Assembly: GCF_009650765.1 (NCBI RefSeq)
Contig: NZ_CP045740.1
Location: forward strand, 248,001-312,000
Direction of reading: 5' to 3'
Length of the DNA: 64,000 nt
DNA from: Streptomyces sp. SUK 48
Lineage (GTDB): Bacteria; Actinomycetota; Actinomycetes; Streptomycetales; Streptomycetaceae
Position 1 is the first letter of the stretch. Every line of letters starts with the position of its first letter. Positions 1,570-47,299 of this stretch are shown here, in pieces. The notes under the pieces were generated by a model. That model made no database searches and had not been told where the DNA came from. It saw only the letters and a program-made list of their open reading frames with translations. A program made the position numbers and the translations under genes.

Positions 1570-1668
1570 GGAGAGGTGCCCGGAGTGGCTGATCGGGGAC
1601 CAGCGAGCACGTCTCGAGGTCGGACCTCCCAGGGGTCCACGCAGGTTCAAATCCTGCCCTCTCCGCCA
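1570..1668 (+). tRNA. tRNA-like gene, class II (Ser-type), aberrant anticodon arm, copy A
   Basis: The 99-nt element folds as a class II tRNA. Acceptor GGAGAGG (1570-1576) pairs with CCTCTCC (1658-1664), followed by G and an encoded CCA. The D-stem is CCCG/CGGG with a GG-containing loop. The variable arm is long (GGACCTC/GGGGTCC). The T-arm is GCAGG-TTCAAAT-CCTGC. Where a 5-bp stem and 7-nt anticodon loop should be, there is instead ACC-AG-CGAG-CACGT-CTCG-A-GGT, a longer imperfect hairpin with a 5-nt loop and no U33. The discriminator G and long arm resemble serine tRNA (family knowledge). A near-copy lies at 47201-47299. It could be a diverged serine tRNA, a non-decoding tRNA-like RNA, or a pseudo-tRNA; shared structure argues against simple decay. 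Confidence 0.7.
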
Positions 1669-1741
1669 TCCGGCCGCCGACGGAAACGAAACGGTGGTCG
1701 TCTGGAGGACGACGCGGGCGCGATGTCCGCCAGGCGGGAGG

Positions 1742-2854
1742 TCAGCGGTTGCGGCCGACCGGCAGTTCCAGGCGGAGTTCGTAACCGCCCTGCGCGGTGG
1801 GGCCGGAGATGACGCTGCCGCCGAGGAGTTCGGCCCGCTGCGTCAGACCGACCAGACCGTGCCGGGCGCTCGGCAGCGCCAGCGCCCGCCGCAGCGGGGC
1901 GGTGTTGGTGACGGTGGTGCGGACGCGGTCGCCGCGGTGCTCGACGCGGACGATCGCCGTGGCTCCCGGGGCGTGCTTGCGCGCGTTGGTCAGCGCCTCC
2001 TGCACGGTGCGGTAGACCGCGCGCTGCACCGCGGGCGGCAGGTCCTCGGGCAGGTCGGTCTCCAGTTTCGCCTCGATGCCGCTGGCGTCGACCAGCCGCT
2101 CCAGGTCGGCGAGGGAGGGCTGCGGTGTCAGTTCACCCGGGCCGCTGCCGGAATCGCGCAGGACGCCCACCATGTGCCGTAGTTCGTCCAGGGTCTGCAC
2201 ACTCAGGCGGCGGATCGTGGCCGCCGCCCGCCGCGTCTCGGTGTCCCCGCTCCCCACCTGGAGCGCTCCGGCCTGTACGGCGATCAGGCTGACCTGGTGG
2301 GAGACCACGTCGTGCATCTCCCGGGCGAGCTGGGCGCGTTCCTCGGCGAGGACGCTCTTGGCGGTGAGCAGCCGTTCCTGCGCGCGCGCCTCGCCGATGT
2401 CCGCGAGGCGCAGGGAGAGTTCGCGCCGGGCCTGGACGAGCTGGCCCAGAAAGACGGGGGCGGCGGCGGTGGCCAGGGTGTAGCTGAGGTGGAAGAGGTT
2501 GTTCGTCTGGGACAGTTCGGTGGCGTCGAGGGACGACCACGGCCAGGGCAGGTAGTCGATGACGGCGTAGGTGAGGGCGCAGGCGGCCAGCAGGACGCGG
2601 TGGCGGTTGAGCGAGGAGAGCGTGTACAGCGCGGCCATGGGCGCGAGGACCGCGTCGGTGACCAGGGCGGTGGGGAGCGTGAGGACGAAGGTCGCCAGGG
2701 GCAGCCGGCGGCGCGCGCCGAGGGCGAGCGCGCCGAGCAGTGCGCAGGCGGCGGCCGGCTGCTCCGCGATGCCGACGTGGGCCGCCGCGTCGAGCAGCGC
2801 GAGCCCGACGAGGAGTACGTCGAGCTGCCGGTCCGAAGGCCGTCGGAGGGTCAA
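1742..2854 (-). CDS. Sensor histidine kinase, NarL/DesK type (HisKA_3)
   Basis: A 370-residue kinase starting at a TTG whose bases overlap the TGA of the upstream response regulator (TTGA), so the pair is translationally coupled. Residues ~10-140 hold four to five hydrophobic segments; a coiled linker follows. The HisKA_3 phosphoacceptor is His181 in REMHDVVSHQ. The C-terminal HATPase has the N-box EALTNARKHAP and a final G-rich GLVGLTQRAELLGG segment. It should autophosphorylate and donate to the regulator encoded at 2851-3519. No long periplasmic domain is seen, so the signal is probably membrane-borne or intramembrane. Confidence 0.9.
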   Translation of the reverse strand: MTLRRPSDRQLDVLLVGLALLDAAAHVGIAEQPAAACALLGALALGARRRLPLATFVLTLPTALVTDAVLAPMAALYTLSSLNRHRVLLAACALTYAVIDYLPWPWSSLDATELSQTNNLFHLSYTLATAAAPVFLGQLVQARRELSLRLADIGEARAQERLLTAKSVLAEERAQLAREMHDVVSHQVSLIAVQAGALQVGSGDTETRRAAATIRRLSVQTLDELRHMVGVLRDSGSGPGELTPQPSLADLERLVDASGIEAKLETDLPEDLPPAVQRAVYRTVQEALTNARKHAPGATAIVRVEHRGDRVRTTVTNTAPLRRALALPSARHGLVGLTQRAELLGGSVISGPTAQGGYELRLELPVGRNR

Positions 2855-3519
2855 CGGACGCCCTCGCCCCCTTCCCGGGAGAGCAGTCCGGCGCGCTCGG
2901 CGATCAGTACGGCCTGGACCCGGCTGCCGACCCGCAGCTTGCCGAGCAGATTGGTGACGTGGCCCTTGACGGTGCCGGTGCTCAGATGCAGCCGCTCGCC
3001 GATGTCGGTGTTGGCCAGCCCCTCCGCCATGAGGGTGAGGACCGCGCGCTCGCGCTCGGTGAGCCGGTCGGTGAGGCGGACCGCGGCGGGCTCGCGCGCG
3101 CCGTGGTCGAGATAGCCGTCCACCACCCTGCGGGTGACCTTCGACGACAGCACCGTCCCGCCCTGCGCCAGCGTGCGCACCAGGTGGGGCAGCTCCTCCG
3201 GATCGGTGTCCTTGAGCAGGAACCCGGCCGCGCCCGAGCGCAGTGCCGTGGCCACGTAGTCGTCGGCGTCGAACGTGGTGAGCATCGCGACCACCGGGGG
3301 CTGAGGCATCCGGCGCAGGTCGGCCAGCACGGACAGCCCGTCGACGTCCGGCATCCGGATGTCGAGCAGGACGACGTCGGGTAGCAGTTCCCGCACCGCG
3401 CGCACGCCCAGACCGCCGGGCACCGCGCCGACGACCTCGATGTCGTCCGCCGCGTTGAGAATGTGTGTGAAACCCGTACGGATCAGGGCTTCGTCGTCGA
3501 TCACCATTACCCGGACCAC
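2851..3519 (-). CDS. Response regulator, NarL/FixJ family
   Basis: 222 residues. The receiver domain has the acidic pair IDDE at the N-terminus, phosphoacceptor Asp53 in LLDIRMPDVDG, and the conserved Lys in FLLKDTDPEEL. The C-terminal LuxR-type HTH is LTERERAVLTLMAEGLANTDIGERL with a matching recognition helix (STGTVKGHVTNLLGKL). It is the cognate partner of the kinase immediately downstream, in the order regulator then kinase with a 4-nt overlap. Target genes are not evident. Confidence 0.92.
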   Translation of the reverse strand: MVRVMVIDDEALIRTGFTHILNAADDIEVVGAVPGGLGVRAVRELLPDVVLLDIRMPDVDGLSVLADLRRMPQPPVVAMLTTFDADDYVATALRSGAAGFLLKDTDPEELPHLVRTLAQGGTVLSSKVTRRVVDGYLDHGAREPAAVRLTDRLTERERAVLTLMAEGLANTDIGERLHLSTGTVKGHVTNLLGKLRVGSRVQAVLIAERAGLLSREGGEGVR

Positions 3520-3745
3520 GTGCGCTCCGCTCCTCGCAAGCCTGCCTGCGATGCCTACCCCCGCCGGAGCCCGCCGGGGGCGGCCGGCGCGCGGTACCCG
3601 CCGATCGGCGGCACGGACTCAGCCGGTCGGCGGGGACTCCCCCGGCCGCCCGGCGGGCATGCGGCCGGTCGGCGGGGGGAGGTGTTTGCGGACGCGTGGC
3701 GGGGCGCCTCGGGACGGCTGCCGGAGTGGTTCGGGCGGCGGCGCG

Positions 3746-46357: not shown

Positions 46358-46388
46358 ATGACCGCCGTCCCTGCCGGGCGGCGGTCAT
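46358..46388 (-). terminator. Hairpin terminator of the repeat lipoprotein gene
   Basis: ATGACCGCCG (46358-46367) pairs with CGGCGGTCAT (46379-46388) around an 11-nt loop, 38 bases beyond the lipoprotein stop. Confidence 0.65.
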
Positions 46389-46425
46389 GTGCGTGGCGGT
46401 CCCGCTCGGGTCGGGACCGGGGGCC

Positions 46426-46944
46426 TCAGTGCTGGACCGGCGGGCAGTAGCCGGTGTCCTCGCCGATGGAGTTGATCTCGGCGTTGGAGCGGGGGTCGCC
46501 CGCGTAGTCGATCTGGTTGGTGCAGCTGACACCGGGCTTCTTCGGGGTGCCGGCGGGCTTGGTGCCCTTCTCCGGGGCGGGGCAGTGGCCGGTCTGCTCG
46601 CCGATGCTGTTGATCTCCGCGTTCGACCGCGGGTCGCCCGCGTAGTCGATCTGGTTGGTGCAGCTCACCCCGGACTTCTTGGGGGTACCGGCGGGCTTGG
46701 TGCCCTTCTCCGGGGCGGACTTCTTCGGGGTGCCGGCCGGCGTGGTGCGGGTCGCGCCCTGGCCGGATGCCGAGCCCTGGCCGGACGCGGAGGCGGCGGA
46801 GCCGGGCCGCGTGGAGCTGGTGGCGGTGGACGACGCGGCCGAGGAGGGCGAGGCGCCGTCGGAGCCGCTGCCGCCGCAGGCCGTGAGCGACAGGCCGAGC
46901 GCGACACCGGCGACGGCGAACATCGAGATCTTCTGGACGCGCAT
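46426..46944 (-). CDS. Secreted lipoprotein with a 46-residue tandem duplication
   Basis: 172 residues. Signal MRVQKISMFAVAGVALGLSL with lipobox LTAC (Cys23). A Ser/Thr/Gly linker leads to two tandem units of exactly 46 residues (78-123 and 124-169), each beginning PEKGTKPAGTPKK and containing GVSCTNQIDYAGDPRSNAE and INSIGE, closing with a Cys. Only a few positions differ (S/P, Q/D, H/Y). Each unit has two Cys, so each may form a disulfide-closed mini-domain outside the cell. A further PAGTPKK precedes the first unit. Function unknown; the basic PAGTPKK linker may interact with wall polymers (inference). Confidence 0.82.
   Translation of the reverse strand: MRVQKISMFAVAGVALGLSLTACGGSGSDGASPSSAASSTATSSTRPGSAASASGQGSASGQGATRTTPAGTPKKSAPEKGTKPAGTPKKSGVSCTNQIDYAGDPRSNAEINSIGEQTGHCPAPEKGTKPAGTPKKPGVSCTNQIDYAGDPRSNAEINSIGEDTGYCPPVQH
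46438..46713 (-). repeat. Tandem 138-bp duplication inside the lipoprotein gene
   Basis: Two in-frame 138-bp units; for example GCCGATG occurs at 46462 and 46600 on the plus strand, exactly 138 bases apart. The units are strongly conserved at the nucleotide level with scattered, often silent, differences, indicating a duplication that is not brand-new but selected to remain in frame. Confidence 0.85.
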
Positions 46945-47200
46945 CAGTTCCCCCTGAGGACGGGCCCCGCTCCCGGTGAGCGGGCCTTGCGCCTATCGAG
47001 ACAGAGGCGCCGTCTCCCCGGTTGCCCGGCACCCGACCCTGAGACATTTCTGTGACACTCGTGGCCATTACACATATCAACGGGCCGCACCCGGGACGGA
47101 GAAGAGAGACCGTCAGCCTCTCGTCAGCGGTCCGTCAGTGCCGCCTGGCAGTCTCTTCCCTGTGAACGGCGAGGGGGCACCGCCCCGGAGCCGGGAACGA

Positions 47201-47299
47201 GGAGAGGTGCCCGGAGTGGCTTATCGGGGACCAGTTGAGCACGCCTCAAGGTCGGACCCCCAGGGGTCCACGCAGGTTCAAATCCTGCCCTCTCCGCCA
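47201..47299 (+). tRNA. tRNA-like gene, class II (Ser-type), aberrant anticodon arm, copy B
   Basis: Also 99 nt with encoded CCA. Acceptor GGAGAGG (47201-47207)/CCTCTCC, D-stem CCCG/CGGG, variable arm GGACCC/GGGTCC with loop CCAG, T-arm GCAGG-TTCAAAT-CCTGC. The anticodon arm is ACC-AG-TTGAG-CACGC-CTCAA-GGT: an 8-bp stem with an AG bulge and 5-nt loop. Compared with copy A, a C-G pair has become T-A on both sides of the stem, a compensatory change showing that the hairpin itself is maintained. The 5' flank (TGTGAACGGCG, then CCGGGAACGAG) is shared. If read as 4 bp plus a 7-nt loop, both copies show ACG in anticodon position but with C instead of U33. Confidence 0.7.

Follow-up and report, generated by a model that had tools for sequence, protein, structure and literature searches.

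A serine-tRNA-like gene family in Streptomyces with a plain hairpin in place of the anticodon arm, most likely a serine donor for azoxy biosynthesis

In valanimycin biosynthesis, the enzyme VlmA, a member of the PF09924 family (PMC9379638), transfers serine in a Ser-tRNA dependent reaction to an alkylhydroxylamine, a step towards the N-N (azoxy) bond, and how Ser-tRNA is drawn away from translation into this pathway is called 'still unknown' in the accessible part of a review. The available portions of the valanimycin and azoxy literature describe the serine as coming from Ser-tRNA or from the tRNA pool of the cell and mention no dedicated tRNA gene, whereas Streptomyces sp. SUK 48 would possess genes dedicated to this task. 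Two elements in the stretch of DNA analysed here (the window, 64 kb, positions 248,001-312,000 of an 8.34-Mb single contig) belong to a serine-tRNA-like family in which a plain hairpin takes the place of the anticodon, and most likely carry serine to an antibiotic-making enzyme and not to the ribosome. A tRNA gene unable to decode, located beside the transferase and preceded by the SARP-type box of the cluster, is a direct candidate answer to the question of how Ser-tRNA is diverted. The family would also be a natural example of the tRNA pool of one amino acid being divided between translation and metabolism, and may help as a marker when genomes are mined for azoxy (N-N bond) clusters.

The cell-wall tRNA-Gly of staphylococci keeps its glycine anticodon. 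Like the family proposed here it is a tRNA reserved as donor for a non-ribosomal transferase, in its case for peptidoglycan bridges, and the features that the accessible text links to weak EF-Tu binding are A51-U63, an altered 49-65 pair and altered G18 G19 (PMC4052509). The SUK 48 family shares A51-U63 but differs in that it retains G18 G19, has lost the anticodon loop altogether and appears to be used in an antibiotic-type cluster; by analogy it would function like the staphylococcal tRNA-Gly without being a member of that group. The tRNA-Other pseudo-tRNA of Bacillus cereus is likewise a tRNA-like RNA outside translation, but it carries a Trp anticodon, shows poor aminoacylation and is tied to regulation and antibiotic resistance, with no paired transferase named in the part of the article available (PMC3399842). 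Selenocysteine tRNA (Rfam RF01852) is the best Rfam match of both window copies and has a similarly long variable arm; membership was rejected because their scores, 21.9 and 23.2 bits, fall far short of the gathering score (47), and the copies differ from it in their 7-bp acceptor and the lack of a UCA anticodon. In the open-access literature, preprints excluded and as far as the texts were available, no report was found that places a tRNA-like gene inside a biosynthetic cluster, azoxy or otherwise. The family would be a pseudo-tRNA of the donor type whose setting is new and which avoids decoding in a new way.

A preliminary description of the window had proposed two 99-nt tRNA-like elements, and their coordinates and length are confirmed (Table 1), as is the fold assigned to both: 7-bp acceptor, D arm, AG-bulged hairpin, long variable arm, T arm, G73 and CCA. 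The C-G to T-A change reported in the odd arm is real (CGAG/CTCG in copy 1, TTGAG/CTCAA in copy 2, whose arm has one pair more), and the near-identity of the remainder is borne out, the two copies being 94% identical. Two further details hold for the window copies and not for the family: the encoded CCA is found in 4 of 13 SUK 48 copies, and the CACGY loop (CACGU and CACGC) is not constant in the family, where loops have 3-6 nt and in two cases 8 nt. Folding alone is weak evidence because the z-scores of the two elements are only -1.75 and -2.99; the decisive evidence comes from the family. Two standard tools, ARAGORN and Rfam, miss or misname its members: ARAGORN made no tRNA call in the window, leaving both elements undetected, and neither element matches any Rfam family above its cut-off.

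With copy 1 as query, 13 full-length copies were found in the SUK 48 genome. A covariance model built from these copies (R1) scored them at 91.7-115.8 bits, and the next match in the genome was a tRNA-Tyr at 42.9 bits. Mean identity between the copies is 95% over the first 32 nt of the body and 97% over the last 27 nt, falling to 46% in the 25-nt linker preceding the body and to 30-32% in the farther flanks; the tRNA-like bodies are conserved and their surroundings are not. The acceptor stem is invariant across the 13 copies, and in the family the acceptor, D and T arms are almost invariant while the anticodon arm covaries. Eleven of the 13 copies are found no more than 0.8 Mb from a chromosome end (binomial p=7e-7, for a 0.8-Mb line picked post hoc from the positions). 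The copies at 1,298,864 and 8,233,013 have identical bodies and shared flanks that include a similar neighbour gene; this points to a recent segmental duplication and hints at the mode by which copies spread.

Covariation was assessed in an alignment (A2) of 89 matches from 65 loci, R1's own 13 included, which reduce to 76 distinct rows. Standard pairs occupy 96.1% of the pair cells compared with 92.6% in shuffles, 70 cells are changed on both sides compared with 21, and 13 of 29 pairs show double-sided change compared with 6.9, counts that lean towards structure in that the model guided the alignment. Slid controls were 35.5-58.8% paired. The double-changed pairs include three of the four in the proximal and all four in the distal helix of the anticodon arm, and the covariance-model search over more genomes that the preliminary description had called for was thus positive, with additional compensatory changes in this arm. 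Such compensatory changes, together with promoters conserved amid decayed flanks and the co-occurrence with VlmA described below, make it very unlikely that the copies are relics of tRNA-Ser, either pseudogenes or products of mobile elements such as integration scars or a repeat that spreads, as could be supposed from their dispersal chiefly in chromosome arms, their presence on plasmids and one rearranged copy. In that copy (L140 in G473, match 1501-1598) the T arm and 3' acceptor are swapped for unrelated sequence and the TCAG box is missing; it looks like a rearranged or dead copy.

The loops were assessed on the 112 distinct arms present in alignments A2 and A5, each folded individually, with two arms omitted for their runs of N. 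None of the remaining 110 has a 7-nt loop, and the canonical tRNA-Ser combination of 7-nt loop, U33 and serine anticodon is absent. Loops of 4 nt (54 arms) and 5 nt (31) predominate, followed by 3 nt (19), 6 nt (4) and 8 nt (2), and the tetraloops include GCAA (12) and UUCG (7). The arm is evidently maintained as a hairpin and not as an anticodon, and by its loop sizes the family is predicted, on structural grounds, to be unable to decode, as would be expected of a donor-type pseudo-tRNA. That the RNA decodes through an unusual anticodon, reading for instance a quadruplet or a rare codon, is hardly credible. ARAGORN does assign anticodons to five of the 13 SUK 48 copies and calls member L144 a tRNA-Ser(gct), but the calls conflict with one another (Leu, Ala, Ala, Cys and Cys in SUK 48; Ala and Thr for members L275 and L276), and no arm, that of L144 included, has a 7-nt loop. 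Unusual decoding, one of the options raised in the preliminary description, is disfavoured because loop size and sequence vary freely while the stem persists.

Outside this arm, canonical features of tRNA-Ser are retained with single-row exceptions: the long variable arm, the 7-bp acceptor with G73, G18 G19 and a TTCRAAT-type T loop (TTCACAT in the SUK 48 copy at 7,730,105). Pair 49-65 is G-C in the 76 distinct rows apart from one G-U, and G18 G19 are unaltered. All 76 rows have A51-U63 as the third pair of the T stem, compared with G51-C63 in all four normal tRNA-Ser genes (UGA, GCU, CGA and GGA), which are encoded elsewhere in the SUK 48 genome.

A conserved box upstream may connect the family to a regulator. 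When stretches that immediately follow another copy are set aside, 112 of 151 distinct upstream stretches remain, and 110 of these carry TCAG repeats 11 bp apart, where mononucleotide shuffles lead to an expectation of 0.14; three repeats are present in 95 (expected 0.000), and the two without a box belong to L140 and L256. Direct repeats 11 or 22 bp apart are described as SARP targets in the available part of PMC10936776, and this pattern is found in the same 110 stretches. Within the window, TCAG pairs at 11 bp occur only at the two elements. The SUK 48 genome holds 16 triple boxes (2 for a reversed-pattern control), 12 of which are at tRNA-like copies (7) or inside an azoxy-type cluster (5), one of the latter about 60 nt upstream of an operon led by an aldehyde dehydrogenase (ALDH) gene; the remaining 6 of the 13 copies have the box pair only. 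The SARP encoded in that cluster is a natural candidate activator of the boxed promoters. The four other triple boxes (495439, 504823, 1781343 and 6505449) may reflect chance or further SARP targets.

A box conserved in 110 of 112 upstream stretches could also suggest a cis-acting regulatory RNA (a leader, T-box-like element or attenuator) acting on downstream genes. This is very improbable, and a cis leader of the next gene was rejected because the neighbours vary and the next called gene is convergent in at least 4 of the 13 SUK 48 copies (249,570, 7,612,845, 7,663,695 and 7,718,689); in addition, further copies come next in tandem arrays. Such arrays of 2-4 copies, with a period of about 110-125 nt behind a single boxed promoter (L101, L107, L128, L118, L135, L239 and others), look like sources of a polycistronic tRNA-like transcript. 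A subfamily (L071, L138, L139, L144, L275 and L276) has GGAGAGGTACCCG bodies and upstream repeats of TCTCAG instead of GTCAG, and its promoter box and tRNA-like gene appear to have diverged together.

The neighbouring genes point to the likely user of the RNA. In 64 gene-called loci, a related protein of about 330 amino acids lies near the tRNA-like gene in 27 and is divergent in 26 of these 27; both examples examined belong to PF09924, the aminoacyl-tRNA transferase domain at the C-terminus of MprF. A related regulator is found in 17 loci (a SARP with BTAD domain in both examples examined) and another related protein in 9 (the single example examined is a lipid kinase of the VlmJ type). In SUK 48, the copy at 2,138,694 is flanked by a PF09924 gene (2,137,510-2,138,517, - strand; E=1.6e-66) and a SARP gene (2,139,074-2,139,871, + strand). 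The surrounding cluster (2.098-2.140 Mb) also encodes an ALDH, an acyl-CoA-dehydrogenase-like protein (VlmH type), a class-III aminotransferase, a flavin reductase (VlmR type), KAS III, an acyl carrier protein, a ketosynthase, a desaturase, and PrpD (VlmK type) and lipid-kinase (VlmJ type) proteins. A second seryl-tRNA synthetase (SerRS) is encoded there as well. In its alignment with SerRS of solved structure, the motifs typical of class II synthetases look intact. The VlmB type is a weak AurF match (E=0.0008) and the VlmO type a weak DUF4260 match (E=0.15), a match also reported, in the accessible text, for the VlmO homologue Ady6.

Based on VlmA, H, R, B, O, J, K and L types occurring together, the locus qualifies as a putative Vlm-type azoxy cluster, the types having been assigned from Pfam families and from resemblance to related loci, without alignment to vlm proteins, and referred to the enzyme set in the available parts of PMC9379638 and PMC11705231. 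As described there, valanimycin (VlmA/VlmL) and the azoxy clusters KA57-A and azodyrecin likewise combine a PF09924 transferase, an extra SerRS and VlmH/R/B/O/J/K types, and a SARP, VlmI, is reported for valanimycin (from a title in the reference list of PMC4052509). Gene content and position suggest that the SUK 48 cluster resembles the KA57-A cluster of S. rochei, as far as the accessible part of PMC6662830 describes it.

Across the genus, the tRNA-like gene and the transferase occur together. In a sample of 392 genomes, with up to 10 candidates scored per genome, the tRNA-like gene was found in 51 (E<=1e-6) and a VlmA-type match in 80 (E<=1e-80). The genetic link to an aminoacyl-tRNA transferase that characterizes a donor-type pseudo-tRNA is present in 49 of the 51 tRNA-like genomes, compared with 31 of 341 without the tRNA-like gene (Fisher p=1.8e-38, in a test that ignores the kinship of genomes). 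It is seen again at named VlmA loci (80 loci, the best among 210, with flanks up to 10 kb), 62 of which have a tRNA-like gene within the flanks, counts that are not independent of the genus sample in that the genomes partly overlap. The genera of these loci are Streptomyces, Kitasatospora, Actinacidiphila, Micromonospora, Salinispora and Allorhizocola. In 12 of the 18 genomes whose named VlmA locus has no local copy, copies lie farther off. In S. griseofuscus and S. murinus the VlmA-side promoter box is intact and the tRNA-like gene there is a 3' stump only, with 15 and 9 other copies elsewhere, which is the picture expected if copies act in trans (the S. griseofuscus strain being DSM 40191). 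S. coeruleorubidus ATCC 13740, by contrast, has three copies in one cis array.

The cluster SerRS profile (E<=1e-150) matched 58 genomes, 29 of them positive for the tRNA-like gene (p=1.2e-14). Its scores are bimodal: all 24 genomes at 691-887 bits are positive (p=1.7e-24, for a 690-bit line drawn after the scores had been seen), as are 5 of the 34 at 565-635 bits. In three Streptomyces genomes (G062, G218 and G386) about 15 kb or less separates the lower-scoring type from a tRNA-like gene, so a more distant cluster SerRS may exist. The preliminary description had also suggested a regulatory decoy, and it is conceivable that the RNA, bound or charged but donating nothing, ties up SerRS, a nuclease or a toxic compound for self-protection during azoxy production; the multiple copies, a box in common with the cluster and a second SerRS that could be a resistance copy would fit. 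Such a decoy would, however, not require a near-invariant whole acceptor, G73 and T arm, and the link is more frequent to the transferase (49 of 51 genomes) than to SerRS (24 of 51 at high score), and we regard this explanation as unlikely. Donation of an amino acid outside translation, a third option of the preliminary description, is well supported by both neighbourhood and co-occurrence (VlmA-type PF09924 gene, extra SerRS, SARP).

The family is therefore best read, with considerable though not full confidence, as a SARP-controlled, non-decoding serine-type tRNA that is dedicated to azoxy biosynthesis and would donate serine to a VlmA-type enzyme. Long variable arm, acceptor and G73 are serine identity features. 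The cluster SARP would bind the TCAG repeats seen at 11-bp spacing and activate the biosynthetic operons and the tRNA-like copies, both in the cluster and dispersed. The intact tRNA anatomy suggests that the transcript is trimmed and receives CCA in tRNA fashion, after which a SerRS, either the housekeeping one or that of the cluster, could charge it via the serine identity features. Lacking an anticodon loop and carrying A51-U63, the charged RNA may escape consumption by EF-Tu and the ribosome, and the VlmA-type transferase would then move serine from it to the alkylhydroxylamine, leading to the N-N (azoxy) bond. The dose would be raised in trans by the additional copies out in the chromosome arms. 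Perhaps, in the antibiotic clusters of actinobacteria, a dedicated SerRS and the anticodon-less tRNA even form a private aminoacylation system, read only by the dedicated transferase, in which one SARP commands a chromosome-wide tRNA set and a natural orthogonal pair is kept apart from translation, a tentative extension that could as easily prove wrong.

Several observations weigh against a dedicated serine donor. VlmA activity has been shown with ordinary Ser-tRNA-Ser (review PMC12945691, accessible part), so a special RNA is not chemically required, and some VlmA clusters manage without it: 31 of the 80 VlmA-positive genus genomes lack the tRNA-like gene (one of them, G001, is only 79% complete), as do 6 of the 18 genomes whose named VlmA locus has no local copy. 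The need for 13 dispersed copies is accounted for by dose alone. In the nine SUK 48 loci that were gene-called, a PF09924 gene is near copy 2,138,694 only. The label 'VlmA-type' itself reflects Pfam family and cluster content; the 120 homologues listed for the SUK 48 transferase have general names only, and none is named VlmA. Profiles A3 and A4 were derived from genes beside tRNA-like copies, the SerRS score line is post hoc, and L144, called tRNA-Ser(gct), has an arm that folds with a 6-nt loop. Two tRNA-like genomes (G192 and G324) have no VlmA match at E<=1e-80; their copies adjoin a VlmJ-type lipid kinase and a class-III aminotransferase and have TCTCAG repeats upstream. VlmA scores are 329-538 bits in the 31 genomes without the tRNA-like gene and 483.5-647.6 in the 49 with it; 27 of the 31 score below every positive genome, and four (G361, G097, G110 and G241) fall within the positive range. 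A renewed search of these 31 genomes with model R2 gave matches in 28 at E<=0.001 (best 49.5 bits) and none in three, and ARAGORN identified the best match per genome as tRNA-Tyr in 26 and tRNA-Ser in two, with no tRNA-like gene among them.

In a tree of VlmA proteins (the 80 named and that of SUK 48), the tRNA-like gene occurs across Streptomycetaceae and Micromonosporaceae with scattered absences, and in Pseudonocardiaceae it is present away from VlmA. An order-wide search with R1 matched 29 of 293 genomes, all in the genus of SUK 48 (1 of 9 genera). A phylum-wide search, in which 10 candidates were scored per genome and true copies may be missed, matched 79 of 396 genomes; this count was rejected as evidence of spread because, outside two genomes of SUK 48's genus, the matches listed score low (51.9-62.1 bits) and all 15 loci checked (L358-L372) are normal tRNA-Ser. 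No tRNA-like match was found in the phage collection searched. Nine Streptomyces plasmids carry 1-4 copies each (e.g. NZ_CP107797.1 and NZ_CP051007.1). The PLSDB annotation 'none' for these nine matches was rejected as a sign of missing annotation, being uninformative because that table contains no RNA genes. At locus L148, azoxy-type cluster genes surround the tRNA-like copy.

Table 1 Features of the two tRNA-like elements in window coordinates
Feature	Position	Strand	Basis or remark
tRNA-like copy 1, 99 nt, encoded CCA	1570..1668	+	fold, family alignment, covariance model
Copy 1, acceptor stem 5' strand GGAGAGG	1570..1576	+	pairs with 1658-1664; G73 at 1665; CCA 1666-1668
Copy 1, D arm, stem CCCG/CGGG, G18 G19 retained	1579..1597	+	fold and alignment
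Copy 1, hairpin in place of anticodon arm, GACC-AG-CGAG-CACGU-CUCG-A-GGUC	1598..1621	+	fold and covariation
Copy 1, long variable arm (serine/leucine-class feature)	1622..1638	+	fold
Copy 1, T arm GCAGG-UUCAAAU-CCUGC, third pair A51-U63	1641..1657	+	fold and alignment
Copy 1, SARP-type box, 3 TCAG repeats, 11-bp spacing	1483..1508	+	genome 249483-249508
Copy 1, conserved GTGAACGG promoter/leader motif	1532..1539	+	alignment of upstream stretches
tRNA-like copy 2, 99 nt, encoded CCA	47201..47299	+	fold, family alignment, covariance model
Copy 2, hairpin in place of anticodon arm, GACC-AG-UUGAG-CACGC-CUCAA-GGUC	47229..47253	+	fold and covariation
Copy 2, long variable arm	47254..47269	+	fold
Copy 2, T arm	47272..47288	+	fold
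Copy 2, SARP-type box, 3 TCAG repeats, 11-bp spacing	47113..47138	+	genome 295113-295138
Copy 2, conserved GTGAACGG promoter/leader motif	47162..47169	+	alignment of upstream stretches

Elsewhere in the window, Rfam gave a Sernc350 match at 21612-22123 (+ strand, 100.9 bits), which is antisense to a predicted 468-amino-acid gene (20744-22150, - strand) and may be an artefact of the coding sequence.

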